NCBI RefSeq assembly: GCF_023156585.1
Contig: NZ_JALNMI010000004.1
Span: forward strand, 158,407-222,406
DNA from: Subsaxibacter sp. CAU 1640
GTDB taxonomy: Bacteria > Bacteroidota > Bacteroidia > Flavobacteriales > Flavobacteriaceae
Direction: 5' to 3'
Length of the DNA stretch: 64,000 nucleotides
Shown: piece after piece, positions 2,092 to 63,141 of the stretch
Layout of the letters: the number at the start of each line of letters is the position of its first letter
How positions within the stretch are numbered: the first letter of the stretch is position 1
Program-made: the position numbers and the translations under genes
Notes under the pieces: generated by a model
The model's input: the letters and a program-made list of their open reading frames with translations, nothing else
The model's database searches: none
What the model was told of the DNA's origin: nothing

Positions 2092-3084
2092 ATGAATTAT
2101 TCCGCTAGCATCATTGTTCCTGTTTATAACGCCGAAAAATATCTCGATCGATGTATTAATAGTTTACTTAATCAGTCATATGAAAATCTAGAAATCATTT
2201 TAGTAAATGATGGTTCAACTGACAATAGCGGAACTATTTGTGACAGATACCATAACAGCTATAAAAACATTCGTGTAATCCACCATGAAAAAAGCAGTGG
2301 TTCCGCAAGTCGTGCTAGAAACTCTGGATTGTTTATTGCGTCTGGAGATTACATTTCGTTTGTAGATAGCGACGATTGGATTCATCCAGAGATGATATCT
2401 ATAATGTGCTCATATATAGAAAAATACGAAGCAGGCCTTTCGGAGTGTGAATTGCTGGAGACAGCAGATTACATAATTAAATCTCTACCCGAAAATATTG
2501 ATAACCACTGTATATTTGAGGATCGGTTAGAAACGCTTAAAAGAATAATTGACACTCAAAGATTTTCGGTCTGTGTGAGAGTTTATAAAGCTTCGATTTT
2601 AAAAGGTATAAAGTTCCCTGAAGGTGTAATATCCGAAGATCTTTATTTTACTCTTGATGTTAGCGAGAGAATCAATAGTATTGTGAAAATCGATCTCCCT
2701 TTATACTATTATCACTTAACTCCTAACAGTATTACCAGAAAAGACTATAACTTAAAACATCTAGACACTTTAAAATCTAGCTTATATCTAATTAATACCA
2801 TTTCAGAAAAGGAAACTGATTCCGAACTTCAGTTGAAGGCACGTTCATTTGTTGTAAATGAACTTGTTTATCATTATAAAATGTTGAATTATTTTCCGAG
2901 TTTAGATAAAAAATTTGAACATAGGAAACGTCTAAAGAAGCAAATAAGAGAAAATTTAAAAAGTGAAATTTCATACAATCTCTATACAAAATTGGCTAAT
3001 GCTCTTCCTGTTAAAACGTTCGAGATGATAATCAGTTTGAATAAATTCAAACATCGAGTTATGAGGACAAATCATTTTTCATGA
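2092..3084 (+). CDS. Family 2 glycosyltransferase
   Basis: A 330-residue GT-A fold inverting glycosyltransferase that would add one sugar to the lipid-linked repeat unit at the cytoplasmic membrane face. The N-terminus SIIVPVYNAEKYLDRC and VNDGSTDNS (about residues 6-46) form the nucleotide-binding start. SRARNSGL (about 73-80) and VDSDDW (91-96, the DxD-like metal/UDP site) are typical of the family. SEDLYFTLDV near residue 180 matches the ED region that supplies the catalytic base. The C-terminal third is helical and basic with no clear membrane span. It is the first gene of the plus-strand polysaccharide operon, 36 bp before the flippase. Donor and acceptor cannot be read from sequence. 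Confidence 0.93.
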   Translation: MNYSASIIVPVYNAEKYLDRCINSLLNQSYENLEIILVNDGSTDNSGTICDRYHNSYKNIRVIHHEKSSGSASRARNSGLFIASGDYISFVDSDDWIHPEMISIMCSYIEKYEAGLSECELLETADYIIKSLPENIDNHCIFEDRLETLKRIIDTQRFSVCVRVYKASILKGIKFPEGVISEDLYFTLDVSERINSIVKIDLPLYYYHLTPNSITRKDYNLKHLDTLKSSLYLINTISEKETDSELQLKARSFVVNELVYHYKMLNYFPSLDKKFEHRKRLKKQIRENLKSEISYNLYTKLANALPVKTFEMIISLNKFKHRVMRTNHFS

Positions 3085-3120
3085 TTTTTACTTTATTTTT
3101 GATCTTGTTAAAATCCTTTC

Positions 3121-4665
3121 ATGTCTAGAGTTTCAAAATCTATAAAAAATGCCAAAGTTGGAGCCTTCTTTTTTTTAGTCTCAATTTTTGCGCAATTTTT
3201 TACTAGAAAAATATTTTTGGATTTCCTTGGCGATGAATTTATAGGCCTTACCTCTACCTTAAGGAGCATTTTGGGGTTTCTGAATTTGGCCGAACTTGGG
3301 ATTGGTACAGCCATAGGTTATGCTCTGTACAAACCAATTTTTGACAACGACCAATCGGAGATAAACAAAATCATTGCACTTCTGGGCATTTTATATAAGA
3401 GAATTGGTCTTTTTATATTAGGTACTGGAATAGTTCTGTCTCTCTTTTTCCCCTATTTCTTGGGTGAAACGCAATTTTCATTGGGACTGATATACTTTAT
3501 ATTTTTCTCATTTTTGACATCTACTCTTTTAAGTTACTTCTTCAATTTTCATATGACCTTATTGGAAGCTGATCAAAAAGGTTATGTTGTACAAGTTTAT
3601 TTTCAAAGCATTAACATTTTAAGGCTTCTTGTACAAGCTTTGATTGCCTACTATCTTCAGAACTATTATGCTTGGGTCATTATGGAGTTGCTTTTCTCAA
3701 TAATCTTAAGCATTATTTTAAGAAAGAAAATTACGCAGCATTATCCATGGTTAATTATCAATTCAGATGAATCTAAAGAGTTGATAAAAACGTATCCTTG
3801 GATCATAAAAAAAACAAAGCAGCTTTTTGTTCATAAGATGGGTTCATTTGTAAAAGATGGAACGGATAACATTTTAGTTTATGCTTTAGTCAATGTTCAA
3901 AGTGTAGCTTTTTTCGGGAATTATCAGCTCATATTCGTAAATCTCATTAGTTTAACACAAATTGTATTTTCAGGTACAGGTGCTGGCATTGGCAATTTGG
4001 TTGCAGAAAATGACCAAAAAAATATCAAAAAAGTGTTCTGGGAAATGATGGCCTTACAGTTTTTTATAGCCGGCTTTTTTAGTATCGCAATTTATTTTTT
4101 AATCAGTCCATTTATCGTTTTATGGATTGGGGAAGAATATGTTTTAGGAAGGCTTATTGTAATATTGATGATAGGCAATTTCTTTATTTCTTTAGTAAGG
4201 TCACCTGTTCAGTACTTTCAAAATGCCTATGGTTTATTTTCAGATACTTGGGCGCCAGCTTTAGAAATAGTAGTCAATTTAGTAATATCACTTATTTTTG
4301 GAAAGCTTTGGGGGATATCGGGTATACTGTTGGGAACCTTCACTAGTTTAATAATTATAATTATGATTTGGAAGCCTTATTTGCTTTATTCAAAAGGTTT
4401 TAAGTTAAGTGTTTGGAATTATTGGAAAGGTTTTCTACCATTGCTGTTTATCTTTTTTTTATCTGCATTTATATTAAATTTTATATACCAGAATTTCCTA
4501 AGTCAGAATAGTTTGAATTTCTTTAAATGGAGTGTGCATGCTTTTATATTGAGTATCGTCATTTTTACTGTATATGGGCTATTGATGTATGCTTTCTCGA
4601 AAGGCTTCAGGGATTTCAATAAAAGAATTTATCACATCATAAAAGCAAAAATTAAACAGTCATAA
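3121..4665 (+). CDS. Wzx-type oligosaccharide flippase
   Basis: A 514-residue polytopic membrane protein of the MOP/polysaccharide biosynthesis family, with about 12-14 hydrophobic segments spread along its length. The N-terminal part (KVGAFFFLVSIFAQFFTRKIFLDFLGDEFIGL) and the segment GTGAGIGNLVAENDQKN are typical of Wzx/RfbX proteins. Family role: moving undecaprenyl-diphosphate-linked repeat units from the cytoplasmic to the periplasmic face before polymerisation. It sits between glycosyltransferases and upstream of a Wzy-like gene, supporting a Wzx/Wzy-dependent pathway. The substrate is unknown. Confidence 0.92.
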   Translation: MSRVSKSIKNAKVGAFFFLVSIFAQFFTRKIFLDFLGDEFIGLTSTLRSILGFLNLAELGIGTAIGYALYKPIFDNDQSEINKIIALLGILYKRIGLFILGTGIVLSLFFPYFLGETQFSLGLIYFIFFSFLTSTLLSYFFNFHMTLLEADQKGYVVQVYFQSINILRLLVQALIAYYLQNYYAWVIMELLFSIILSIILRKKITQHYPWLIINSDESKELIKTYPWIIKKTKQLFVHKMGSFVKDGTDNILVYALVNVQSVAFFGNYQLIFVNLISLTQIVFSGTGAGIGNLVAENDQKNIKKVFWEMMALQFFIAGFFSIAIYFLISPFIVLWIGEEYVLGRLIVILMIGNFFISLVRSPVQYFQNAYGLFSDTWAPALEIVVNLVISLIFGKLWGISGILLGTFTSLIIIIMIWKPYLLYSKGFKLSVWNYWKGFLPLLFIFFLSAFILNFIYQNFLSQNSLNFFKWSVHAFILSIVIFTVYGLLMYAFSKGFRDFNKRIYHIIKAKIKQS

Positions 4666-9955: not shown

Positions 9956-11106
9956 CCAATAAACCTAAAATATCTATTTTGACAATTGATTTTGGTATGG
10001 GTGGAGCTCAACGCTTTATAAGCCTACTCTTGCCACAATTGGTCCAAGATTTTCAGGTTAGTTTAGTTCTTTTTGTTGATTATATCCACTTTGAAATACC
10101 TGAAGAAGTTGAGCTAGTTATACTTAATCCTGATTCCAAAAGCTCTAATTCATATATTTCAAAAATACAGCGAACATTTGGTCTGTTTTCTAAATATAAA
10201 AATTTCGTAAGAAAAAATAAGATTGAGGTTTCGCTATCGCTCCTACCTGTTCCGAATATTATAAATAGCCTTTTAACCATTAGTAATAAAAGGGTGAAGA
10301 CAATAATTAGTGAGCGGTGTTATTCTTCAGAAATGTATAAGGATAATGGTGTTCAAATGCTTTTAGCCAAAATATGTTTTCCAGTTTTATATCATCGTAA
10401 TAACCTTCTATTTTCTAATTCCATTCATATCAATGAAGATTTGAAACAAAATTTTGGAGTTAAAATGCCTATGAAAGTTGTTTATAATCCTATAGAAGTA
10501 AATGATAAGGTTAAGCTTCGAACAGAAGCACGTCCCAACGCAAATGCTTTGAAAATCATTAATTCTGGAAGAATTTATGAAGCCAAGAATCAAAAATTGA
10601 TTGTTGAAGCAATGAATATGTCTGAAAAAGGCGGATATTACTTAACTGTTTTGGGTGATGGGATTCTTCAGGAGGAGTTACAAAAGAATATCCAAAATTC
10701 AGGTCTGAATGATTTTGTCGATTTAAAAGGTAAAGTTTCTGGTGTTAAAACATACTTGATTGAAAATGATTGTTTTATTTTATCTTCAAATAACGAAGGT
10801 TTTCCAAACGCCTTATTAGAAGCCTTGTCTGTTGGGTTACCATGCATTTCGACCAATTGTCTCTCTGGACCATTGGAGATGTTGAATGACAATGAACCTG
10901 TGAATATATCTGCAGGAGAATTCCATGAAGCAAAATACGGTATATTAGTCAATGTCAATGACGCTATTGGGCTTAATAAAGCAATGGAATACTTAAAAAA
11001 CGAACCTGAAATGCGTCAAAAATACTCTCGTTTGGCATTTGAACGCGCCAAAATGTATAGTTTGGACAACATCTACAATGAAATAAAAGAACTTATCATA
11101 AATTAG
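9952..11106 (+). CDS. Family 4 glycosyltransferase
   Basis: A 384-residue GT-B enzyme overlapping the previous gene by 4 bp (ATGA). The N-terminal ISILTIDFGMGGAQRFISLLLPQL is the acceptor-side glycine motif with GGAQR in place of GGAER. The donor domain shows INSGRIYEAKNQ and EGFPNALLEALSVGLPCIST (EX7E). SGPLEMLNDN follows, as in the GalNAc-type subgroup. It ends 12 bp before the second asnB gene. Each asnB copy lies next to a GT4, suggesting successive transfer and amidation steps; that pairing is inference. Confidence 0.92.
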   Translation: MTNKPKISILTIDFGMGGAQRFISLLLPQLVQDFQVSLVLFVDYIHFEIPEEVELVILNPDSKSSNSYISKIQRTFGLFSKYKNFVRKNKIEVSLSLLPVPNIINSLLTISNKRVKTIISERCYSSEMYKDNGVQMLLAKICFPVLYHRNNLLFSNSIHINEDLKQNFGVKMPMKVVYNPIEVNDKVKLRTEARPNANALKIINSGRIYEAKNQKLIVEAMNMSEKGGYYLTVLGDGILQEELQKNIQNSGLNDFVDLKGKVSGVKTYLIENDCFILSSNNEGFPNALLEALSVGLPCISTNCLSGPLEMLNDNEPVNISAGEFHEAKYGILVNVNDAIGLNKAMEYLKNEPEMRQKYSRLAFERAKMYSLDNIYNEIKELIIN

Positions 11107-11118
11107 TATAGCTGTTAT

Positions 11119-13020
11119 ATGTGCGGAATTAATGGAATAGTTTATAAAAATTCAGTTGAAGAATCAGTTGCGAGAAGACAGCTTAAATCCATGAATGATT
11201 TAATTATACATCGTGGCCCTGATGATGAAGGCAACTATATCAAGTCGTCAGATAATCATACAGTCGCCATGGGAATGAGACGACTGTCAATTATAGATTT
11301 GCATACTGGAAATCAACCTATGTTTTCTGAAGACGAACAAATAACTCTAGTTTTCAATGGAGAAATTTACAACTTCAAAAAACTTCGTGAAGAACTGGTG
11401 TCAAAGGGTGTAAAATTTGCAACAAAAAGTGATACTGAAGTTGTATTGAAACTATATGAGACTTATGGCGAACAGAGTTTCGCAATGCTTGATGGCATGT
11501 TCGGATTGAGTATTCATGATAAGAAAAGAGATAAAATATTTATTGCTCGCGATTTTTTTGGCGAAAAACCGTTATATTATACCCATACTTCAAACTCCTT
11601 TTTTTGGGCTTCAGAGCTTAAATCCATCATTCAAAATCTGTCTGTAAAACCACAAATCTGCAAGGAAGGATTGAATCTATATTTTCGCTTAACCTATATT
11701 CCAGCTCCTTTTACTATCTATGAAACTATTTACAAGCTGGAGTCCAATAGCTATTTGGACTATGATTTAAAAACCTTCAGTCTTGATATTCGAAACATTC
11801 ATGAGATTAAAAATACAGAGAAGATAGATATTTCATTTCAAGAGGCAAGAAACAAAACAGCAAACATGGTATATAAAAGTGTTGAAAGTCGTTCTATTTC
11901 TGACGTTCCATTAGGCACTTTTTTATCAGGCGGTGTGGACTCTTCCATTGTTTCTTATTGCTTGGCCGATATGACTTACTCAAAAATCGACACATTCTCC
12001 ATAGGTTTTGAGAAAAAATCATATGATGAAACTGACAAATCGCGTATAGTGGCAAAACTCATCAATAGCAATCATCACGAGTTTATTATTAGCGAAACTG
12101 ATTTAAAAAGTTCTGTAGACGAAATTCTTTTAAATTTTGACGAGCCTTTTGCAGATTCTTCCTCACTCCCAACCTATTTGGTTTCCAATAAAACAAAGGC
12201 ACATGTGAAGGTAGCTTTAACAGGAGACGGAGGTGATGAAATTTTTGGCGGTTATAATAAATATTATATAGGCAAATTAAATCGTAAATACACATCATTA
12301 GTTCCTGAATTTGTACATAATTCAATTTCAAATGTTTCCAATTCTGTATTAAGACGAAAAGATGATAACAGAGGCTATAAATACAAAATAAACAAACTCC
12401 TAAAGTCGATAGACTATAGTGACGAGTATTATTGGGATATTATCTCTCTCGGATTTGATAAGGAAGATATCAATGCCCTTTTAAGTGAAGAATTTCAACA
12501 TCTCAATACTTTTTCCTATTTTAAAGAAAAAACCTCAATTGCTAATCCAAAATCATTAAGTGATTTTAGAATGATTGATAAGCATATAAGTCTTGAAGGC
12601 GATATGCTCGTGAAAGTAGATAGAACCAGTATGCTCAATTCTTTAGAGTGTAGAGCGCCATTTTTGAATAGAGAAATTTTTGAATTCACCATGAGTCTGC
12701 CTGAAGATTATTTGATGAAAAAATGGAACAAAAAGTACATCCTAAAAGAAGCATTCAAAAATAAATTTCCTGATAGATTTCTTGAAAAATCTAAACACGG
12801 TTTTGGAGTTCCTGTGGGAGATTGGCTAAGACAAGGGCTTAAAGACGAACTTTTAAGATATTCTGATGCTGATTTCATTGAAAAACAAGGGATTTTTAAC
12901 TATTCAGGAATCGATGCATTGATAAACAATCATCTTACAGGCAAGGCCGACAATACTTTCAAGGTTTGGTCATTTTTCTGCTTTCAAAAGTGGTATTTAA
13001 AAACCTATAATCCATTTTAG
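11119..13020 (+). CDS. asnB: Asparagine synthase B-type amidotransferase (copy 2)
   Basis: A 633-residue protein with Cys2 (MCGINGIV) as glutaminase nucleophile, RGPDDEG, RRLSIIDL and NGEIYNFK in the N-terminal domain, and SGGVDSS (about residues 270-276) plus TGDGGDEIFGGY in the synthetase domain. It has clearly diverged from copy 1 rather than being a recent duplicate, so the two probably act on different substrates or sites. Retained catalytic motifs argue both are active. Its carboxyl substrate cannot be read; a sugar acid or an amino-acid side group on the glycan is plausible from context. A 180-bp gap follows before the next gene. Confidence 0.92.
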   Translation: MCGINGIVYKNSVEESVARRQLKSMNDLIIHRGPDDEGNYIKSSDNHTVAMGMRRLSIIDLHTGNQPMFSEDEQITLVFNGEIYNFKKLREELVSKGVKFATKSDTEVVLKLYETYGEQSFAMLDGMFGLSIHDKKRDKIFIARDFFGEKPLYYTHTSNSFFWASELKSIIQNLSVKPQICKEGLNLYFRLTYIPAPFTIYETIYKLESNSYLDYDLKTFSLDIRNIHEIKNTEKIDISFQEARNKTANMVYKSVESRSISDVPLGTFLSGGVDSSIVSYCLADMTYSKIDTFSIGFEKKSYDETDKSRIVAKLINSNHHEFIISETDLKSSVDEILLNFDEPFADSSSLPTYLVSNKTKAHVKVALTGDGGDEIFGGYNKYYIGKLNRKYTSLVPEFVHNSISNVSNSVLRRKDDNRGYKYKINKLLKSIDYSDEYYWDIISLGFDKEDINALLSEEFQHLNTFSYFKEKTSIANPKSLSDFRMIDKHISLEGDMLVKVDRTSMLNSLECRAPFLNREIFEFTMSLPEDYLMKKWNKKYILKEAFKNKFPDRFLEKSKHGFGVPVGDWLRQGLKDELLRYSDADFIEKQGIFNYSGIDALINNHLTGKADNTFKVWSFFCFQKWYLKTYNPF

Positions 13021-58313: not shown

Positions 58314-58738
58314 TTTAAGCTTCCTAATAACCTGTTCAAACAGTCATTGCTTAACCTTATTTTCGACAAGAACAGGAACTACAACGATATGAACAGTATT
58401 TTCAGCAGCGTGAACACCATTTCCAGCGATGGGAACAGCTAAAACATCGTTGGGAACAGCATTTCCAGCAATGGGAACAACTAAAACACCGTTGGGAACA
58501 CAATTTCCAGCGTTGGGAACAACTAAAACACCGATGGGAACACGATTTCCAGCGTTGGGAACAGCTAAAACATCGTTGGGAACAGCATTTCCAGCGATGG
58601 GAACGGAAAAACATCGACGGGAACGCGTTTTGCAATAATTTTCACTTAAGTTTTATTTCTGTTCGGCCTTTGAATGAAATTGTTCGTTCATATGTTTTAA
58701 AAGTGTATTTTAGTGACATTCTAATACTCTAAATCTAT
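58314..58738. other. Intergenic gap holding array 3
   Basis: 425 bp between the ABC ATPase and the next lipoprotein gene. The first 75 bp and last 115 bp are AT-rich with no gene; the centre is the 21-bp array described separately. TTTTAGTG and similar A/T-rich sequence before 58739 probably contains the promoter, but no clear consensus was found. Confidence 0.5.
58390..58620. repeat. 21-bp tandem array 3 (11 units, two alternating types)
   Basis: Eleven units of 21 bp run from 58390. From 58432 they alternate strictly between a GGAACARCTAAAACAYCG type and a GGAACANNATTTCCAGC type, giving a 42-bp higher-order repeat; a degenerate unit precedes at about 58369. In the frame GAA CAG CTA AAA CAT CGT TGG the four copies of the first type encode the identical heptad EQLKHRW while differing only at silent third positions (CAG/CAA, CAT/CAC, CGT/CGA). 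The other type gives EQHFQRW and variants. No start codon precedes that frame and a TAA closes it about 40 bp upstream. Confidence 0.93.
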
Positions 58739-59191
58739 ATGAAAAGAATCAACAACACCATAGCGCTTCTAGCCTTTCTACTACTGGTGTCCTGTGGGCT
58801 AAAACCTATAACTTCAGAATACACATACATTAAAACCGACCTTCAAAATGTGAAGTTGGATGAACTTGGCAACGGAATCATTCTCATATATAATGGCGCT
58901 AATATTTTTCATAAGATAGATAATACGGCACGTTTGAATATTTGGCTCAATGACCAAGCTCTTGGACAGTTAAAACCTAGCGAGTATGTAATCATCAATC
59001 TGAAAAGTGGAGATCATCATTTTAAGGTGCTGCATAAAGATGTTGTGAATATGAGAAGCGAACACGATGTTGAGATAGATGCCACTACCAAAGTCATTAA
59101 AATAAAACCCAACATTACCTCAAATAAGCTAGAAGTAACCAATGAACTTCCAGAAAACTTTGAAAAATTCAAGTATGCTGAAACTAGATAA
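58739..59191 (+). CDS. Lipoprotein, DUF2846-like
   Basis: A 150-residue protein with lipobox signal (IALLAFLLLVSC, C19). Central part GNGIILIYNGANIFHKIDNTARLNIWLNDQALGQLKPSEYVIINLKSGDHHFKV matches the fold of DUF2846-type proteins (beta sandwich with a G-x-Y/L-R-P-like ending). Function unknown. It overlaps the next gene by 17 bp. Confidence 0.8.
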   Translation: MKRINNTIALLAFLLLVSCGLKPITSEYTYIKTDLQNVKLDELGNGIILIYNGANIFHKIDNTARLNIWLNDQALGQLKPSEYVIINLKSGDHHFKVLHKDVVNMRSEHDVEIDATTKVIKIKPNITSNKLEVTNELPENFEKFKYAETR

Positions 59192-59744
59192 TCATTGCCT
59201 ATCTCGCGTTTTTGGAGTCTTGCTGGTGCTAATCCTGACGTTAAATGTGTGCACCTGCAAAGGCATTGCGCAAGAACAGGATACTGTGCAATCTACAACC
59301 AAATTTGATTTCTCAAAAATTGAAAAATTCCGCAACACAAAGCTCCAAGGTCAAATCATAAATGATTATGACAGCATTTTCAGTCCGTCTCAAAGAATAG
59401 AGCTCACAAAGCTTCTATATGATTACGACATTAAAACCACCCGACAGGTAGTAGTTGTAACGGTTGACAGTATAAAACCTTATTCCGACATCCAAAAATA
59501 TGCAACAGATTTAATGAACTATTGGGGCGTGGGAAATGCCGAAACAAATAACGGACTCGCAATTGTGCTGTGCAAGCCTTGTAGAAAAGTAGCAATAGCC
59601 ACAGGATATGGCACTGAACTCGTCCTGACAGACGACATCTGTAAAAAAGTGATAGAAGAAACCATCATTCCTGAATTCAAAAAAGGAGACTATTATCTCG
59701 GCATTAAAACAGGTGTACTAGAGCTGATAGAACGATGGGAATAA
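59175..59744 (+). CDS. TPM domain protein (YgcG-like)
   Basis: About 189 residues from ATG 59175, which gives a proper signal peptide (VFGVLLVLILTLNVCTCKGIAQ); a longer open frame from 59142 is unlikely. The TPM domain reads YDSIFSPSQRIELTKLLYDYDIKTTRQVVVVTVDSIKPYSDIQKYATDLMNYWGVGNAETNNGLAIVLC and ends VAIATGYGTELVLTD. The C-terminal repair/kinase parts of larger homologues are absent. Likely periplasmic, associated with envelope stress. It is the last ordinary gene before the cassette array. Confidence 0.9.
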   Translation: MLKLDNHCLSRVFGVLLVLILTLNVCTCKGIAQEQDTVQSTTKFDFSKIEKFRNTKLQGQIINDYDSIFSPSQRIELTKLLYDYDIKTTRQVVVVTVDSIKPYSDIQKYATDLMNYWGVGNAETNNGLAIVLCKPCRKVAIATGYGTELVLTDDICKKVIEETIIPEFKKGDYYLGIKTGVLELIERWE

Positions 59745-59762
59745 AAGTCTCCTGGTTTAATC

Positions 59763-59811
59763 ATTAACTTTAATCCCGTAACTGGCGGTTATACGAGACC
59801 GTCAGCAAATA
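59763..59811 (+). repeat. Partial attC-like site at the left end of the cassette array
   Basis: Only the right half of a recombination-site-like palindrome is present: CCCGTAACTGGCGGTTATAC, then GAGACC, then GTCAGCAAAT. The 40 bp at 59763-59802 match 61830-61869 at 39 positions. No matching left arm (GTATAACCG...) lies upstream, so the site is truncated. Confidence 0.65.
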
Positions 59812-59815
59812 TTAA

Positions 59816-60418
59816 ATGAAGAACTTAACTATTATATTTACATTTTTAATCACACTAACAGGTTATGCTCAATCAAATTATTCTAAATGGAAAACAGAAA
59901 AATTTGAAAATAAAAAAATTTATGTTGATTTGAAAAACGCTTTAGAAAATCCATTAAGCGTAAAAATTTTGGATTTAGGTGGGCAAAATTTAACGGAAAT
60001 CCCCAAAAGCATAAAAGAATTTAAAAATCTTCAAGTGTTACTTTTAGGCTGGAGACCAAAAAAATATTTAGATAGTTCAATAATAAAAATGGCTCAAAAT
60101 ATTGGAGGTGGATATTTTCATCTTGACCGCAATAGAGGAATCGTTCTTGATTATAATAAAATTCAGCAATTACCATCCTAACTTTGCACTCTAACACAAC
60201 TGGAATATCTTGAACTGAATTATAATGATATTAAAAGTTTTCCTGATGAAATGGTTAACCTTGAGAATCTGAAACAAATCTCTCTATTTGGAAATTCGAC
60301 AATTTTCAGGAATAACGAAATCATTGAGGAAATGGAATTAAAAATGCCAAATTGTGAATTCCTGACTGCTCGAAATTTTATGAAAGAGAGAAAAAAGAAA
60401 GAACAAAACATTTGCTAA
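59816..60418 (+). pseudogene. Cassette 1: exported leucine-rich-repeat protein broken by an in-frame stop
   Basis: ATG 59816 opens a signal peptide (LTIIFTFLITLTGYAQ) and LRR sequence (VKILDLGGQNLTEIPKSIKEFKNLQVLLLG). A TAA at 60179-60181 ends it after IQQLPS. The same frame then continues for 78 codons with further LRR sequence (LCTLTQLEYLELNYNDIKSFPDEMVNLENLKQISLFG) to TAA 60416-60418. Reading GAA in place of TAA gives LPSELCTLTQLEYL, the usual LRR join, so a single G-to-T change explains the break. The final stop lies inside the cassette end box. A sequencing error is the alternative. Confidence 0.8.
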
Positions 60419-60546
60419 CACCGTATATAAGCTATGGCTCGGTCAGTGCACACTTGGAAAATCCTTGCGGATTTTCAGTTTGGTGTGTACTTGCTAAGTT
60501 TAGTGCTAACCCACGCAACTACTCATAGCCGAGACCGTTGTACACA
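60410..60546 (+). repeat. attC-like site after cassette 1
   Basis: Left box ATTTGCTAAC, then ACC and an inner arm GTATATAAGCTATGGCTCGG. The centre holds the hairpin GAAAATCC-TTGC-GGATTTTC. The right inner arm is CTCATAGCCGAGACC and the right box GTTGTACACA. Total about 137 bp, within the attC size range. Confidence 0.7.
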
Positions 60547-60576
60547 ATTAAAGACAAACATTTCGCTGAAAAGAAA

Positions 60577-60861
60577 ATGATGGAATTACCAAATGATATT
60601 ATTGAAGAAATGAAAATCCGCTTTGACTCGGGTTTTGATTTAGCGAATAAAATTTTGACTGAATCTCTCAATGAAAATGAATACCTAAATCACGAGAGAA
60701 TTATTCGATGTGTAATCTATCTTTCAGACGGAATTCAAAGTTTTAAGCATAATCTGAAAGTAGCTAAAACTGACCCAAGAGATGTTATGCTGTTTGCGGA
60801 ATATGAACAAATGAATAGAATCAGAGATTTCAATAAAACCTTTGCCGAAAATGATGTTTAA
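60577..60861 (+). CDS. Cassette 2: small helical protein (first ORF)
   Basis: About 94 residues from ATG 60577 (MMELPNDIIEEMKIRFDSGFDLANKILTESL); the open frame extends to a TTG at 60538, but that TTG is part of the cassette boundary. Sequence is polar and predicted all-helical (NHERIIRCVIYLSDGIQSFKHNLKVAKTDPRDVMLFAEYE). No family recognised. Its 3' end overlaps the next ORF by 11 bp, making a two-gene cassette. Confidence 0.68.
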   Translation: MMELPNDIIEEMKIRFDSGFDLANKILTESLNENEYLNHERIIRCVIYLSDGIQSFKHNLKVAKTDPRDVMLFAEYEQMNRIRDFNKTFAENDV

Positions 60862-61006
60862 AGAAAAAACGAAGGATAATGAACTTTATGTTTATCTGAA
60901 TGGAAAACTGATTTACAAAAAGTGGCTGAATAGTGGAGAATCGAAAGTGTTTGACGTAATGGCTTATGACAAATACACTTTGAAAACAATAAAAGAAACG
61001 GAATAA
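60851..61006 (+). CDS. Cassette 2: second ORF, 51 aa
   Basis: ATG at 60851 (a second ATG follows at 60854) opens 51 codons to TAA 61004-61006. The product is basic and beta-rich: FKEKTKDNELYVYLNGKLIYKKWLNSGESKVFDVMAYDKYTLKTIKETE. Overlap with the upstream ORF suggests translational coupling. The stop is 6 bp before the cassette end box. Unknown function; a two-component module such as a toxin-antitoxin pair is possible but unsupported by motifs. Confidence 0.6.
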   Translation: MMFKEKTKDNELYVYLNGKLIYKKWLNSGESKVFDVMAYDKYTLKTIKETE

Positions 61007-61012
61007 AATAAC

Positions 61013-61151
61013 TGTGTACAACAACGTATAAAAATAATTGCTATTTTGTGCTTAAATAAAGGTCGGTGCATATTTGCCAACTTCTGATTTTCCTTCGGAA
61101 AATCCTCGCTGACAAACACGCAACTATTCTTATACAAAACCGTTGTGCATA
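61013..61151 (+). repeat. attC-like site after cassette 2
   Basis: Left box TGTGTACAAC, inner arm GTATAAAAATA, central hairpin GATTTTCC-TTC-GGAAAATC, right inner arm TATTCTTATAC, linker AAAACC, right box GTTGTGCATA. Inner arms are complementary at 10 of 11 positions. Confidence 0.72.
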
Positions 61152-61181
61152 ATGTAAAAAAACAACGAAAATACATCAAAA

Positions 61182-61703
61182 TTGTCAAATGAAAAGCGGA
61201 AAACTAAACTCAAATATTACGGATTGAAACGGAAAGAAATTTTTTGGCTAATAGCTACATTTGGTATTTCAATAATTATTTGTCTGATTTTGCTTGGACT
61301 TAATTGCTTTAGCTCATCGACGACTGACATAAATGTTCACGACACTTATTTCGTTGTGGAAAAAAGTGAATTATCCCTGCTAATTATCAAGCTTACTTTT
61401 TTCTTTGTATATCTAATCAGAATGCTAAAAAGAAAATTCAAAAATTTGACGGCAAATCTGATTTTTATGATTGCCAATGTCTTTATGAATTTTTCAGTTG
61501 TTGGATTATTTTCACTAATCAAATCATTTGCTCGTTCGACAGGGGTGATTGAAAATAATATGGAAAAAAATTCTATGTTAGATAGTGGTTCAACAGAATA
61601 TATTATTTTGTGGTTGACATTTCTAATGTTTCAAATATTCTTGCTGATTTCGCTCGGATATACAGGGTTTAAAACCGGACTGAATTACAAAAAGAATGGA
61701 TAA
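61182..61703 (+). CDS. Cassette 3: four-TM membrane protein
   Basis: About 173 residues from a TTG start at 61182; no ATG is available in frame after the upstream stop at 61155. Hydrophobic segments: IFWLIATFGISIIICLILLGL, LLIIKLTFFFVYLI, ANLIFMIANVFMNFSVVGLFSLI and YIILWLTFLMFQIFLLISLG. Between the first two lies TDINVHDTYFVVEKS, a motif I recognise from small uncharacterised Bacteroidota membrane proteins. Function unknown. Confidence 0.72.
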   Translation: MSNEKRKTKLKYYGLKRKEIFWLIATFGISIIICLILLGLNCFSSSTTDINVHDTYFVVEKSELSLLIIKLTFFFVYLIRMLKRKFKNLTANLIFMIANVFMNFSVVGLFSLIKSFARSTGVIENNMEKNSMLDSGSTEYIILWLTFLMFQIFLLISLGYTGFKTGLNYKKNG

Positions 61704-61708
61704 AACAC

Positions 61709-61877
61709 TATGCACAACAATGTATAACCGCAATTACGGCGGATTCGACTACGTCCGGCACGAGCACGAAGTGCGAACTGGCGTAGCAATCCACTCGGAA
61801 TTGCTAACGTCTGTGCTTAACCGAAAATTATTAACTTTAATCCCGTAACTGACGGTTATACGAGACCGTTGGCAATA
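61709..61877 (+). repeat. attC-like site after cassette 3
   Basis: Left box TATGCACAAC, inner arm GTATAACCGCAATTACGG, a GC-rich centre with GCAC-GAAG-TGCG type hairpins, right inner arm CGTAACTGACGGTTATAC, linker GAGACC and right box GTTGGCAATA. At about 169 bp it is longer than typical attC sites. Its right half is nearly identical to the partial site at 59763. Confidence 0.7.
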
Positions 61878-61880
61878 ATT

Positions 61881-62381
61881 ATGAAAAAATCGATAATTCT
61901 AACGACAATACTTCTGATATTTTCAATGTCCGAAATTTGTGCGTGTAGCTGTTTCAAAAAAAGTGTGACAGAAAACTTTAAAGGAGCTGATTTAGTTTTT
62001 ACTGGACAAGTAGTAGAAATAATTGAGCATAAAATGATTGATTCAATTCCAACCGACGATGAATTGAAACCTTTCAAAATCCGAAAATATAACCGAATTG
62101 AATTTAAGTTCAAAATCTTGAAATTATACAAAGGAGATATTGATTCGGAATTCGTTTCTATATATACAACAGGCGGAATTATTGACTGCGGAAATTACTT
62201 CCCAATAAATTCCAAGCAATTTGTTTATTCATATATTACAGACGTAAGACTTAATGACTATGGTTCCGACAGAAAAGTTAAGCCCTATTATTCGACAAGT
62301 ACTTGCAGTCAAACCAAAGAATTGAAAAGAACCAAACGCCGTGAAATAAAGGAAATTGAACAATTATCTGGAATAAAATAA
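61881..62381 (+). CDS. Cassette 4: exported Cys-rich protein, TIMP/NTR-like
   Basis: About 166 residues from ATG 61881 (KKSIILTTILLIFSMSEICACSC); a TTG four codons earlier belongs to the cassette boundary. The signal is followed by CACSCFKKSVTENFKGADLVFTGQVVEI, the usual start of bacterial netrin/TIMP-like domains, with later cysteines in IIDCGNYF and STSTCSQTKE that could form disulphides. Probably exported; possible protease inhibitor-like fold, function untested. Confidence 0.75.
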   Translation: MKKSIILTTILLIFSMSEICACSCFKKSVTENFKGADLVFTGQVVEIIEHKMIDSIPTDDELKPFKIRKYNRIEFKFKILKLYKGDIDSEFVSIYTTGGIIDCGNYFPINSKQFVYSYITDVRLNDYGSDRKVKPYYSTSTCSQTKELKRTKRREIKEIEQLSGIK

Positions 62382-62382
62382 C

Positions 62383-62519
62383 TATTGCCAACACCGTGTA
62401 TAAACCATTGCTGGGTCTGTGCTCATCTGGAAAATTCCTGCGGAATTTTCACGTAGATTTGTACTTGGAATGGTCCGGGCAATCACACGCAACGGTCCAT
62501 ACACAAACCGTTGTGAGTA
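62383..62519 (+). repeat. attC-like site after cassette 4
   Basis: Left box TATTGCCAAC, ACC, inner arm GTGTATAAACC; central hairpin GAAAATTCC-TGC-GGAATTTTC; right inner arm GGTCCATACAC, linker AAACC, right box GTTGTGAGTA. Confidence 0.72.
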
Positions 62520-62522
62520 ATT

Positions 62523-63029
62523 ATGAGAAACCGAATTACATTCATATTATCAATTTTAATTTTCATTATAGGTTGTAAAAACGAGGAATCTGTATCTGAA
62601 AATAAAAATGCAGAAATTGGTCAGTTTAGATTTATAATTTCCGACACATTGGCTTATGGAAAAAATATTGCGAGAATATCTGAATACAATCGTAATTTAA
62701 AAGAAAACGAAACTTCTTTAATATCAGTAATAATCAAAAACGAACTGGAAGACGGAACCACGAAAATTGACACTTTTAGTGACGGACTAAAAACACCATT
62801 TTTTGGAATTAGTAAATACCGCACTGGAAAACATAAAATCGAAATTAAGGTAGAAGAAAAAATATTGAGAACGAAATCACTTCCGAACGACTCAATGTCT
62901 CTCGAAATAAAAGACATATATTACACATACGATTTTGATGTGTTTGTAATGGATAAAGAATATAAATCTGAACTGAACGAATTGTTGCGAAAACAAATGG
63001 ATATTGAATATAGTGAAAACCCAATATAA
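62523..63029 (+). CDS. Cassette 5: lipoprotein of unknown function
   Basis: A 168-residue protein from ATG 62523, 12 bp into its cassette. Signal peptide with lipobox (ILSILIFIIGC, C18). The mature part is charged (KNEESVSENKNAEIGQFRFIIS) with beta-like segments KTPFFGISKYRTGKHKIEIKVEEKI and ends in a helical acidic/basic tail. No family recognised. Confidence 0.75.
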   Translation: MRNRITFILSILIFIIGCKNEESVSENKNAEIGQFRFIISDTLAYGKNIARISEYNRNLKENETSLISVIIKNELEDGTTKIDTFSDGLKTPFFGISKYRTGKHKIEIKVEEKILRTKSLPNDSMSLEIKDIYYTYDFDVFVMDKEYKSELNELLRKQMDIEYSENPI

Positions 63030-63035
63030 AATAAC

Positions 63036-63141
63036 TACTCACAACAATGGCTATAATTCATTGCGGTTGAATTCCTTATCGGAATTCAACCGCAAATTTG
63101 CTATCTTCGGTGCACGGCAGACATAAGCCAGAACGTAAATG
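63036..63141 (+). repeat. Degenerate attC-like site closing the array
   Basis: Left box TACTCACAAC and inner arm GGCTATAATTC are present, and the central hairpin GGTTGAATTCC-TTATC-GGAATTCAACC is the longest of the set (11-bp arms). The right side (GACATAAGCCAGAACGTAAATG) has lost the ACCGTT boundary, so this site is probably inactive or marks the array end. Confidence 0.6.

Follow-up and report, generated by a model that had tools for sequence, protein, structure and literature searches.

An array of probable gene cassettes in a Bacteroidota chromosome, very likely part of an integron-like system run by a HARP-type tyrosine recombinase

Near the end of the window (the whole stretch of 64,000 nucleotides of Subsaxibacter sp. 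CAU 1640 that was analysed) we identified an array of five units, which are very likely cassettes of an integron-like Bacteroidota gene-capture system run by a HARP-type tyrosine recombinase; recombination itself is inferred. In its working the system is most probably integron-like; it did not pass tests that define membership in the IntI/attC integrons. Integrons have been reported to be rare in Bacteroidetes, from which earlier only In0 elements and then one complete integron, in Salinibacter, were known (IntegronFinder 2.0, PMC9024848). A literature search for integron-like arrays in Bacteroidota found no description, preprints and most subscription papers being outside its scope. A large gene-capture route in this phylum (about 100 sites in one genome) may have escaped notice, since search tools are designed around IntI and canonical attC.

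The window array consists of five plus-strand units at 59801-63134, and its cassette anatomy and boundaries are shown by sequence (Table 1). An earlier note, made from the sequence alone, had described five plus-strand units at 59802-63135, each with one or two ORFs and with palindromes between them. The description held, and the observation proved to be of larger extent than claimed; as a correction, the array probably began further upstream. The hairpin sites between the units are approximately 90-150 bp long, and all five window sites were detected by the covariance model (CM). Each unit has a private terminal inverted repeat of 13-15 bp (5/5 units); a repeat finder recovered those of units 2-5 unprompted, and that of unit 1 contains one mismatch more. 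The same single mismatch occurs at repeat position 11 in all five units. After S5 the chromosome junction reads GAAC↓GTA (the arrow marks the cut, here and below). The LRR match of the unit 1 product is weak, and the Pfam TIMP match of the unit 4 protein (2.8e-4) is under the cut-off.

Table 1. Positions of cassette units, hairpin sites, terminal repeats and upstream features in the window
Feature	Position	Strand	Description
Possible relic attI-like site	58697..58727	+	58703-58716 = exact 14-mer of attI-like site in a relative, G027 (L087, L053)
TPM-domain gene	59142..59744	+	Directly before S0; Pfam TPM 3e-35
S0	59759..59800	+	Right half of site only, left half lost
Cassette unit 1	59801..60536	+	LRR-like exported protein; start = GTC
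Unit 1 terminal repeats	59801/60419		GTCAGCAAATATTA / GTTAGCAAATGTTT
Site S1	60420..60536	+	CM 113 bits
Cassette unit 2	60537..61141	+	Two small ORFs, 60538-60861 and 60842-61006
Unit 2 terminal repeats	60537/61022		GTTGTACACAATTA / GTTGTACACAGTTA
Site S2	61023..61141	+	CM 121.9 bits
Cassette unit 3	61142..61867	+	Membrane protein, 61182-61703
Unit 3 terminal repeats	61142/61718		GTTGTGCATAATGT / GTTGTGCATAGTGT
Site S3	61719..61867	+	CM 38.7 bits; long terminal structure
Cassette unit 4	61868..62509	+	Exported Cys-rich protein, 61881-62381; weak TIMP/netrin-like match
Unit 4 terminal repeats	61868/62392		GTTGGCAATAATTA / GTTGGCAATAGTTA
Site S4	62393..62509	+	CM 120.4 bits
Cassette unit 5	62510..63134	+	Lipoprotein, 62523-63029
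Unit 5 terminal repeats	62510/63045		GTTGTGAGTAATTA / GTTGTGAGTAGTTA
Site S5	63046..63134	+	Last site; CM 37.4 bits

The same type of end was observed in a larger collection of cassettes. In 117 out of 131 units the first ten bases, compared with the last ten in reverse complement, differed at no more than one position, and when ends were paired across different cassettes (shuffle control) the matching fraction was 3.9%. Position 11 of the end repeat was mismatched in all 117, the 5' base being always A and its partner C in 103, which reads as G once reverse-complemented. Movement of units is shown in a relative, G017, whose complete genome contains two minus-strand arrays approximately 500 kb apart (of the best 150 matches, 45 sites fall in one and 57 in the other). 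Nine cassette families are present there in 2-13 copies at separate places, 96-100% identical over their full length, and for most pairs the copies have one or two bases in common before GTT and three (GTT) to five past the site end. The repetition of these nine families with sharp C↓GTT cuts therefore indicates that cassettes move as units, and the mobility claimed in the earlier note was borne out by the presence of exact units at different places in this relative. The ORF lay on the array strand in 83 out of 85 ORF-bearing cassettes (median length 885 bp). As a separate observation, the intragenomic duplicates of G017, taken alone, leave partial spread by homologous recombination possible; the sharpness of the C↓GTT edges speaks against this.

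The hairpin was examined in an alignment of 13 sites, all from the window genome. Paired cells accounted for 86.5%, compared with 20-39% with partners slid; covariation as high was found in none of 500 shuffles, and changes on both sides occurred in 11 of the 18 pairs. It should be noted that such controls favour any structure derived from the same 13 sequences, which does not account for the compensatory changes. In a set of 150 model-aligned sites, mostly from one genome (G017), Watson-Crick covariation extended throughout the stem except for two A.C positions (150/150 and 142/150). A.C mismatches are near-invariant at three places per site, namely these two inner stem positions and end-repeat position 11, and A.C on the top strand gives G.T wobbles on the bottom strand. 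By computed energy, the bottom strand of the circle form folds more stably in 113 of 117. This preference persisted when the end mismatch was replaced in silico by a pair, and therefore the inner mismatch positions contribute. It is possible that the fixed mismatches (A.C on the top strand, T.G on the bottom) stand in for extrahelical bases in strand choice, an inference from sequence alone. On the basis of covariation and pair counts, a site consists of an R box, an unpaired central spacer, an L stem and a variable terminal structure. The attC consensus (R' box GTTRRRY, R'' RYYYAAC) was satisfied by just 3 out of 117 cassettes.

In array heads elsewhere a tyrosine recombinase comes first, then an attI-like site and after it the first cassette, an arrangement that is shown by sequence. 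In all nine heads inspected, the first cassette began 31-142 nt past the recombinase stop and had its own matching 3' end (the match was poor in L092). A wider scan gave approximately 32 distinct heads, with the first cassette 26-250 nt past the stop and attI-like sequence upstream of the cassette; two of its rows were repeated loci, a wrong start had been chosen in the L089 row, and the IntI control row L205 was a chance match lacking the end mismatch. The heads belonged to Flavobacteriaceae, Cyclobacteriaceae (Algoriphagus, Aquiflexum), Rufibacter, Bacteroidales and MAGs labelled otherwise; Winogradskyella ursingii (L151) and Seonamhaeicola aphaedonensis (L159) are examples of species with an array-head recombinase. 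Recombinase and cassettes usually had the same direction (divergent in L094 and L160). Sites adjoined the recombinase in more than 30 loci. On the other hand, one marginal site match (E 0.043) was all that came from 50 control loci around other tyrosine recombinases, among them true IntI, and the present site model found no credible site adjoining true IntI genes.

The recombinase contains a HARP-like N-terminal domain, a SAM-like core-binding domain and a XerA/IntI-type catalytic domain; the additional domain that IntI has near patch III is missing. Its motif spacing is 70-71, compared with 112-113 in IntI and 76-81 in Xer. Among the recombinases fetched, the N-terminal domain was confined to this family. 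The Pfam HARP model (PF07443) matched L154 with an E-value of 5.4e-7 (29.5 bits against a cut-off of 25), two members scored below the cut-off, and HARP similarity was weak in most of the family. A structural model of the domain (pLDDT 90) ranked the XPB DRD and SMARCAL1 HARP first, with weak Foldseek E-values above 0.04; VIA-align gave a middling Z of about 6, common to eIF1-like and XPB folds, and SMARCAL1 HARP was absent from the listed rows. Thus the likeness to SMARCAL1 HARP (PF07443) and the XPB damage-recognition domain, in fold as in sequence, is weak. An annealing-helicase activity driven by HARP has been reported (Ghosal 2011, cited in PMC9243424), and we found no description of a HARP domain on a tyrosine recombinase in the sources searched. 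The role of the HARP-like domain here is inferred.

Further copies of the site had been sought in the genome, and the covariance model found approximately 32 at E < 1e-4, in eight places, with others across the phylum. Sites were present in 42 out of 60 relatives and in at least 76 out of 296 sampled Bacteroidota genomes (about a quarter), the latter being a lower bound because few candidates were scored per genome; a single genome supplied the training set of the model, which is tuned to one site type. Among the 296 genomes, 48 had both site and recombinase, 28 the site only, 45 the recombinase only and 175 neither (odds ratio 6.7, p 2e-11, relatedness uncorrected). Thus, 28 out of the 76 site-bearing genomes had no recombinase above threshold, and the 45 recombinase-bearing genomes had no site by the present model.

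We propose that the HARP-type tyrosine recombinase would recombine cassettes at C↓GTT. A cassette circle would bear the hairpin site, the bottom strand of which would fold, and the enzyme would read in this fold a paired CAAC/GTTG box, an unpaired spacer and a covarying stem with fixed G.T wobbles. The partner of the folded site in joining would be either an attI-like dyad site or a second cassette site, so that genes would stack in one orientation. Both the single-strand, bottom-strand recombination and the chemistry are inferred. A bolder reading, which could as easily prove wrong as right, is that this is a second integron system, widespread in Bacteroidota, which arose independently of IntI, whose HARP-domain enzyme recognises folded bottom-strand sites through their fixed G.T wobbles instead of extrahelical bases, and in which one enzyme serves several dispersed attI-like platforms. 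The combination of a recombinase from another lineage, an extra domain akin to DNA-annealing proteins and a fixed mismatch code in the sites makes the minimal needs of a folded-site recombinase directly testable.

Comparison with known systems revealed both likenesses and differences. As in integrons (Vibrio sedentary chromosomal and class 1), cassettes have the same orientation, each with a hairpin site, exchange is at GTT, an attI-like site adjoining the integrase gene is the point of cassette entry, arrays can be large, bottom-strand folding is predicted and integrase-less arrays are common. IntI is defined by its additional domain, in archaeal integrons too (PMC9668308), whereas the recombinase of the window system lacks this domain and carries the HARP-like one at its N-terminus. 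Its private end repeats are longer (about 14 bp) and have a fixed mismatch, and R' is not GTTRRRY. A.C/G.T mismatches lie at fixed stem positions at which extrahelical bases are found in canonical attC, whose features and strand choice have been described (PMC2727003). In addition, the genome bears several attI-like platforms, and the integrase usually points in the same direction as the cassettes. The window array resembles a CALIN in being a cluster of cassette sites without an intact integrase; it differs in that its sites depart from canonical attC in the R' consensus and that a decayed copy of a non-IntI recombinase persists elsewhere in the genome. The proposal of a CALIN-type or distant integron-like array in the earlier note was therefore supported, although, judged by the R' consensus, the array would not count as a CALIN in the strict sense, with canonical attC; the note's view that the system would be new if the recombinase was not a classical IntI also held, the partner recombinase not being IntI. 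XerA, XerC and XerD have the SAM-like core-binding and catalytic domains in common with this family (PDB 4a8e, 5hxy, 1a0p) and differ in lacking the HARP-like domain and in their spacing. Xer acts on dif in chromosome resolution.

Of the other explanations, the one that survives best is a variant of ours and not an alternative to it: the recombinase may be a divergent sister lineage of IntI in which the additional domain was lost or had never been acquired. We lean slightly against it. In its favour, the IntI model (TIGR02249) gave the catalytic part of the family 185-211 bits, in two broken stretches and below the cut-off of 265, compared with 93-122 bits for XerC/XerD-type enzymes, and a joint clade of the family and IntI was not rejected (p-AU 0.217). 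Against it, Xer and archaeal/Patescibacteria XerA-like enzymes fell between the family and IntI in free trees, with weak support. Independent origin remains undecided because the sister relation was not rejected, and we have withdrawn it as a firm claim.

It is very unlikely that the array is a remnant of a canonical integron (CALIN) with ordinary attC sites that were formerly served by IntI. Such an integron has in common with the window system the GTT exchange point, attI next to the integrase, same-orientation cassettes and a hairpin with R box, spacer, stem and variable tip. However, the partner enzyme lacks the additional domain, has the shorter motif spacing, scores under the IntI cut-off and lies outside the clade of IntI rows (100/100 support); GTTRRRY is rare in the sites, and the site model found nothing credible beside true IntI genes. 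We consider it similarly improbable that the host XerC/XerD moves the cassettes and that the recombinases at array heads are incidental. The Xer-like recombinases that remain intact in the window genome are indeed of XerC/XerD type, but Xer genes are general, whereas the distribution of the sites follows the HARP-type recombinase, both across genomes and in position next to it, and no sites were found near the Xer genes tested. Finally, palindromes between genes are a recognised mark of static clusters with terminator palindromes and of elements spread by a single-strand HUH/RAYT/IS200-type transposase, but both are all but excluded by the private terminal repeats of each unit, the tyrosine recombinase at array heads and exact unit-sized duplication at many places, the duplications in G017 ruling out the static cluster.

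Under the preferred reading, that of a cassette system run by a HARP-type recombinase, the window array would be a stranded and slowly decaying remnant unless the enzyme comes from outside. The genome had been searched for recombinases, and no intact HARP-type member was found; nor was IntI found near the array. The recombinases above the Pfam cut-off that are intact are two of XerC/XerD type and a 403-aa integrase adjoining an apparent tRNA 3' end. Decay of the local copy is shown: on contig C6 only a C-terminal part of the gene is left, interrupted by stops and frameshifts and, over 26 aa, 85% identical to the same-genus enzyme. Behind it come an intact attI-like site, then a 2-kb cassette and its site. 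Since the local recombinase has decayed and its remnant is on another contig, the window array is an orphan. In this genome approximately ten attI-like sequences stand at the beginning of arrays with no accompanying recombinase; three of these lie together in a single stretch.

The array itself is also decaying, as indicated by the half site S0, the hybrid S1 (its left and right arms are of two site types and do not match each other) and the in-frame stop at 60179-60181 in the unit 1 gene. Over 56 nt, S0 and the right half of S3 share 89% identity. No intact attI-like site was found in the window, the sole candidate (at 58.70 kb) having a degenerate right half. A search for an empty site by comparison of flanking genes yielded none because the upstream TPM gene is itself a cassette gene. 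Its homologues are single-gene cassettes in G017 and G015 (two other genera), with 62-69% identity. The TPM-domain gene is thus likely to be a former cassette gene, and the array start to have been originally further upstream.

In one stretch of the window genome, one to three cassettes came after each of the three attI-like platforms (dyad sites where the first cassette of an array enters). Two of these platforms had repeated DNA containing a terminator-like hairpin in front of them. Judging from sequence alone, such attI-like copies appear to spread together with a short tail resembling the C-terminus of the array-head tyrosine recombinase. In the relative G027, a second platform was preceded by only the 3' end of the recombinase gene, a duplicate of its final codons (ISGNIKS-stop), and the rest of the gene was absent.

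The recombinase, with its clearest HARP match, was also present on a contig labelled Spirochaetota (JARKUF010000008.1), together with an attI-like site and a cassette whose ends showed the same mismatch (at terminal-repeat position 11). This label might reflect either spread outside Bacteroidota or mis-binning of the contig. In the window array, the left arm of cassette-end site S1 was of one site type and the right arm of another; a half-swap between two sites within the hairpin could tentatively be inferred.

The large array of the complete relative genome G017 contained a gene for another tyrosine recombinase, which has a frame of 427 aa, lacks the HARP-like domain and, on sequence evidence only, appears to be cargo. 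A cytosine DNA methyltransferase-like gene in a G017 array was encoded on the other strand from the cassettes. Immediately upstream of the window array region, imperfect tandem repeats of ∼30 bp (GGGAACAGCTAAAACATCGTTGGGAACAGCATTTCCAGCG...) lay between the genes for an ABC transporter and a lipoprotein.

Coordinates of the platforms and other features
Feature	Locus	Positions	Strand
Three near-identical attI-like platforms in tandem	L220 (G000:C4:366001-384000)	4559, 7414, 10032	reverse
Second attI-like platform	L053 (G027:C2 near 1761.7 kb)	870-930	
Site S1	window	60420-60536	
Different tyrosine recombinase gene	L081 (G017:C1:2765999-2766475)	10495-11775	
Methyltransferase-like gene	L082 (G017)	2751-4049	plus
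Tandem repeats	window	58380-58620	
Recombinase, attI-like site and cassette	L154 (JARKUF010000008.1)
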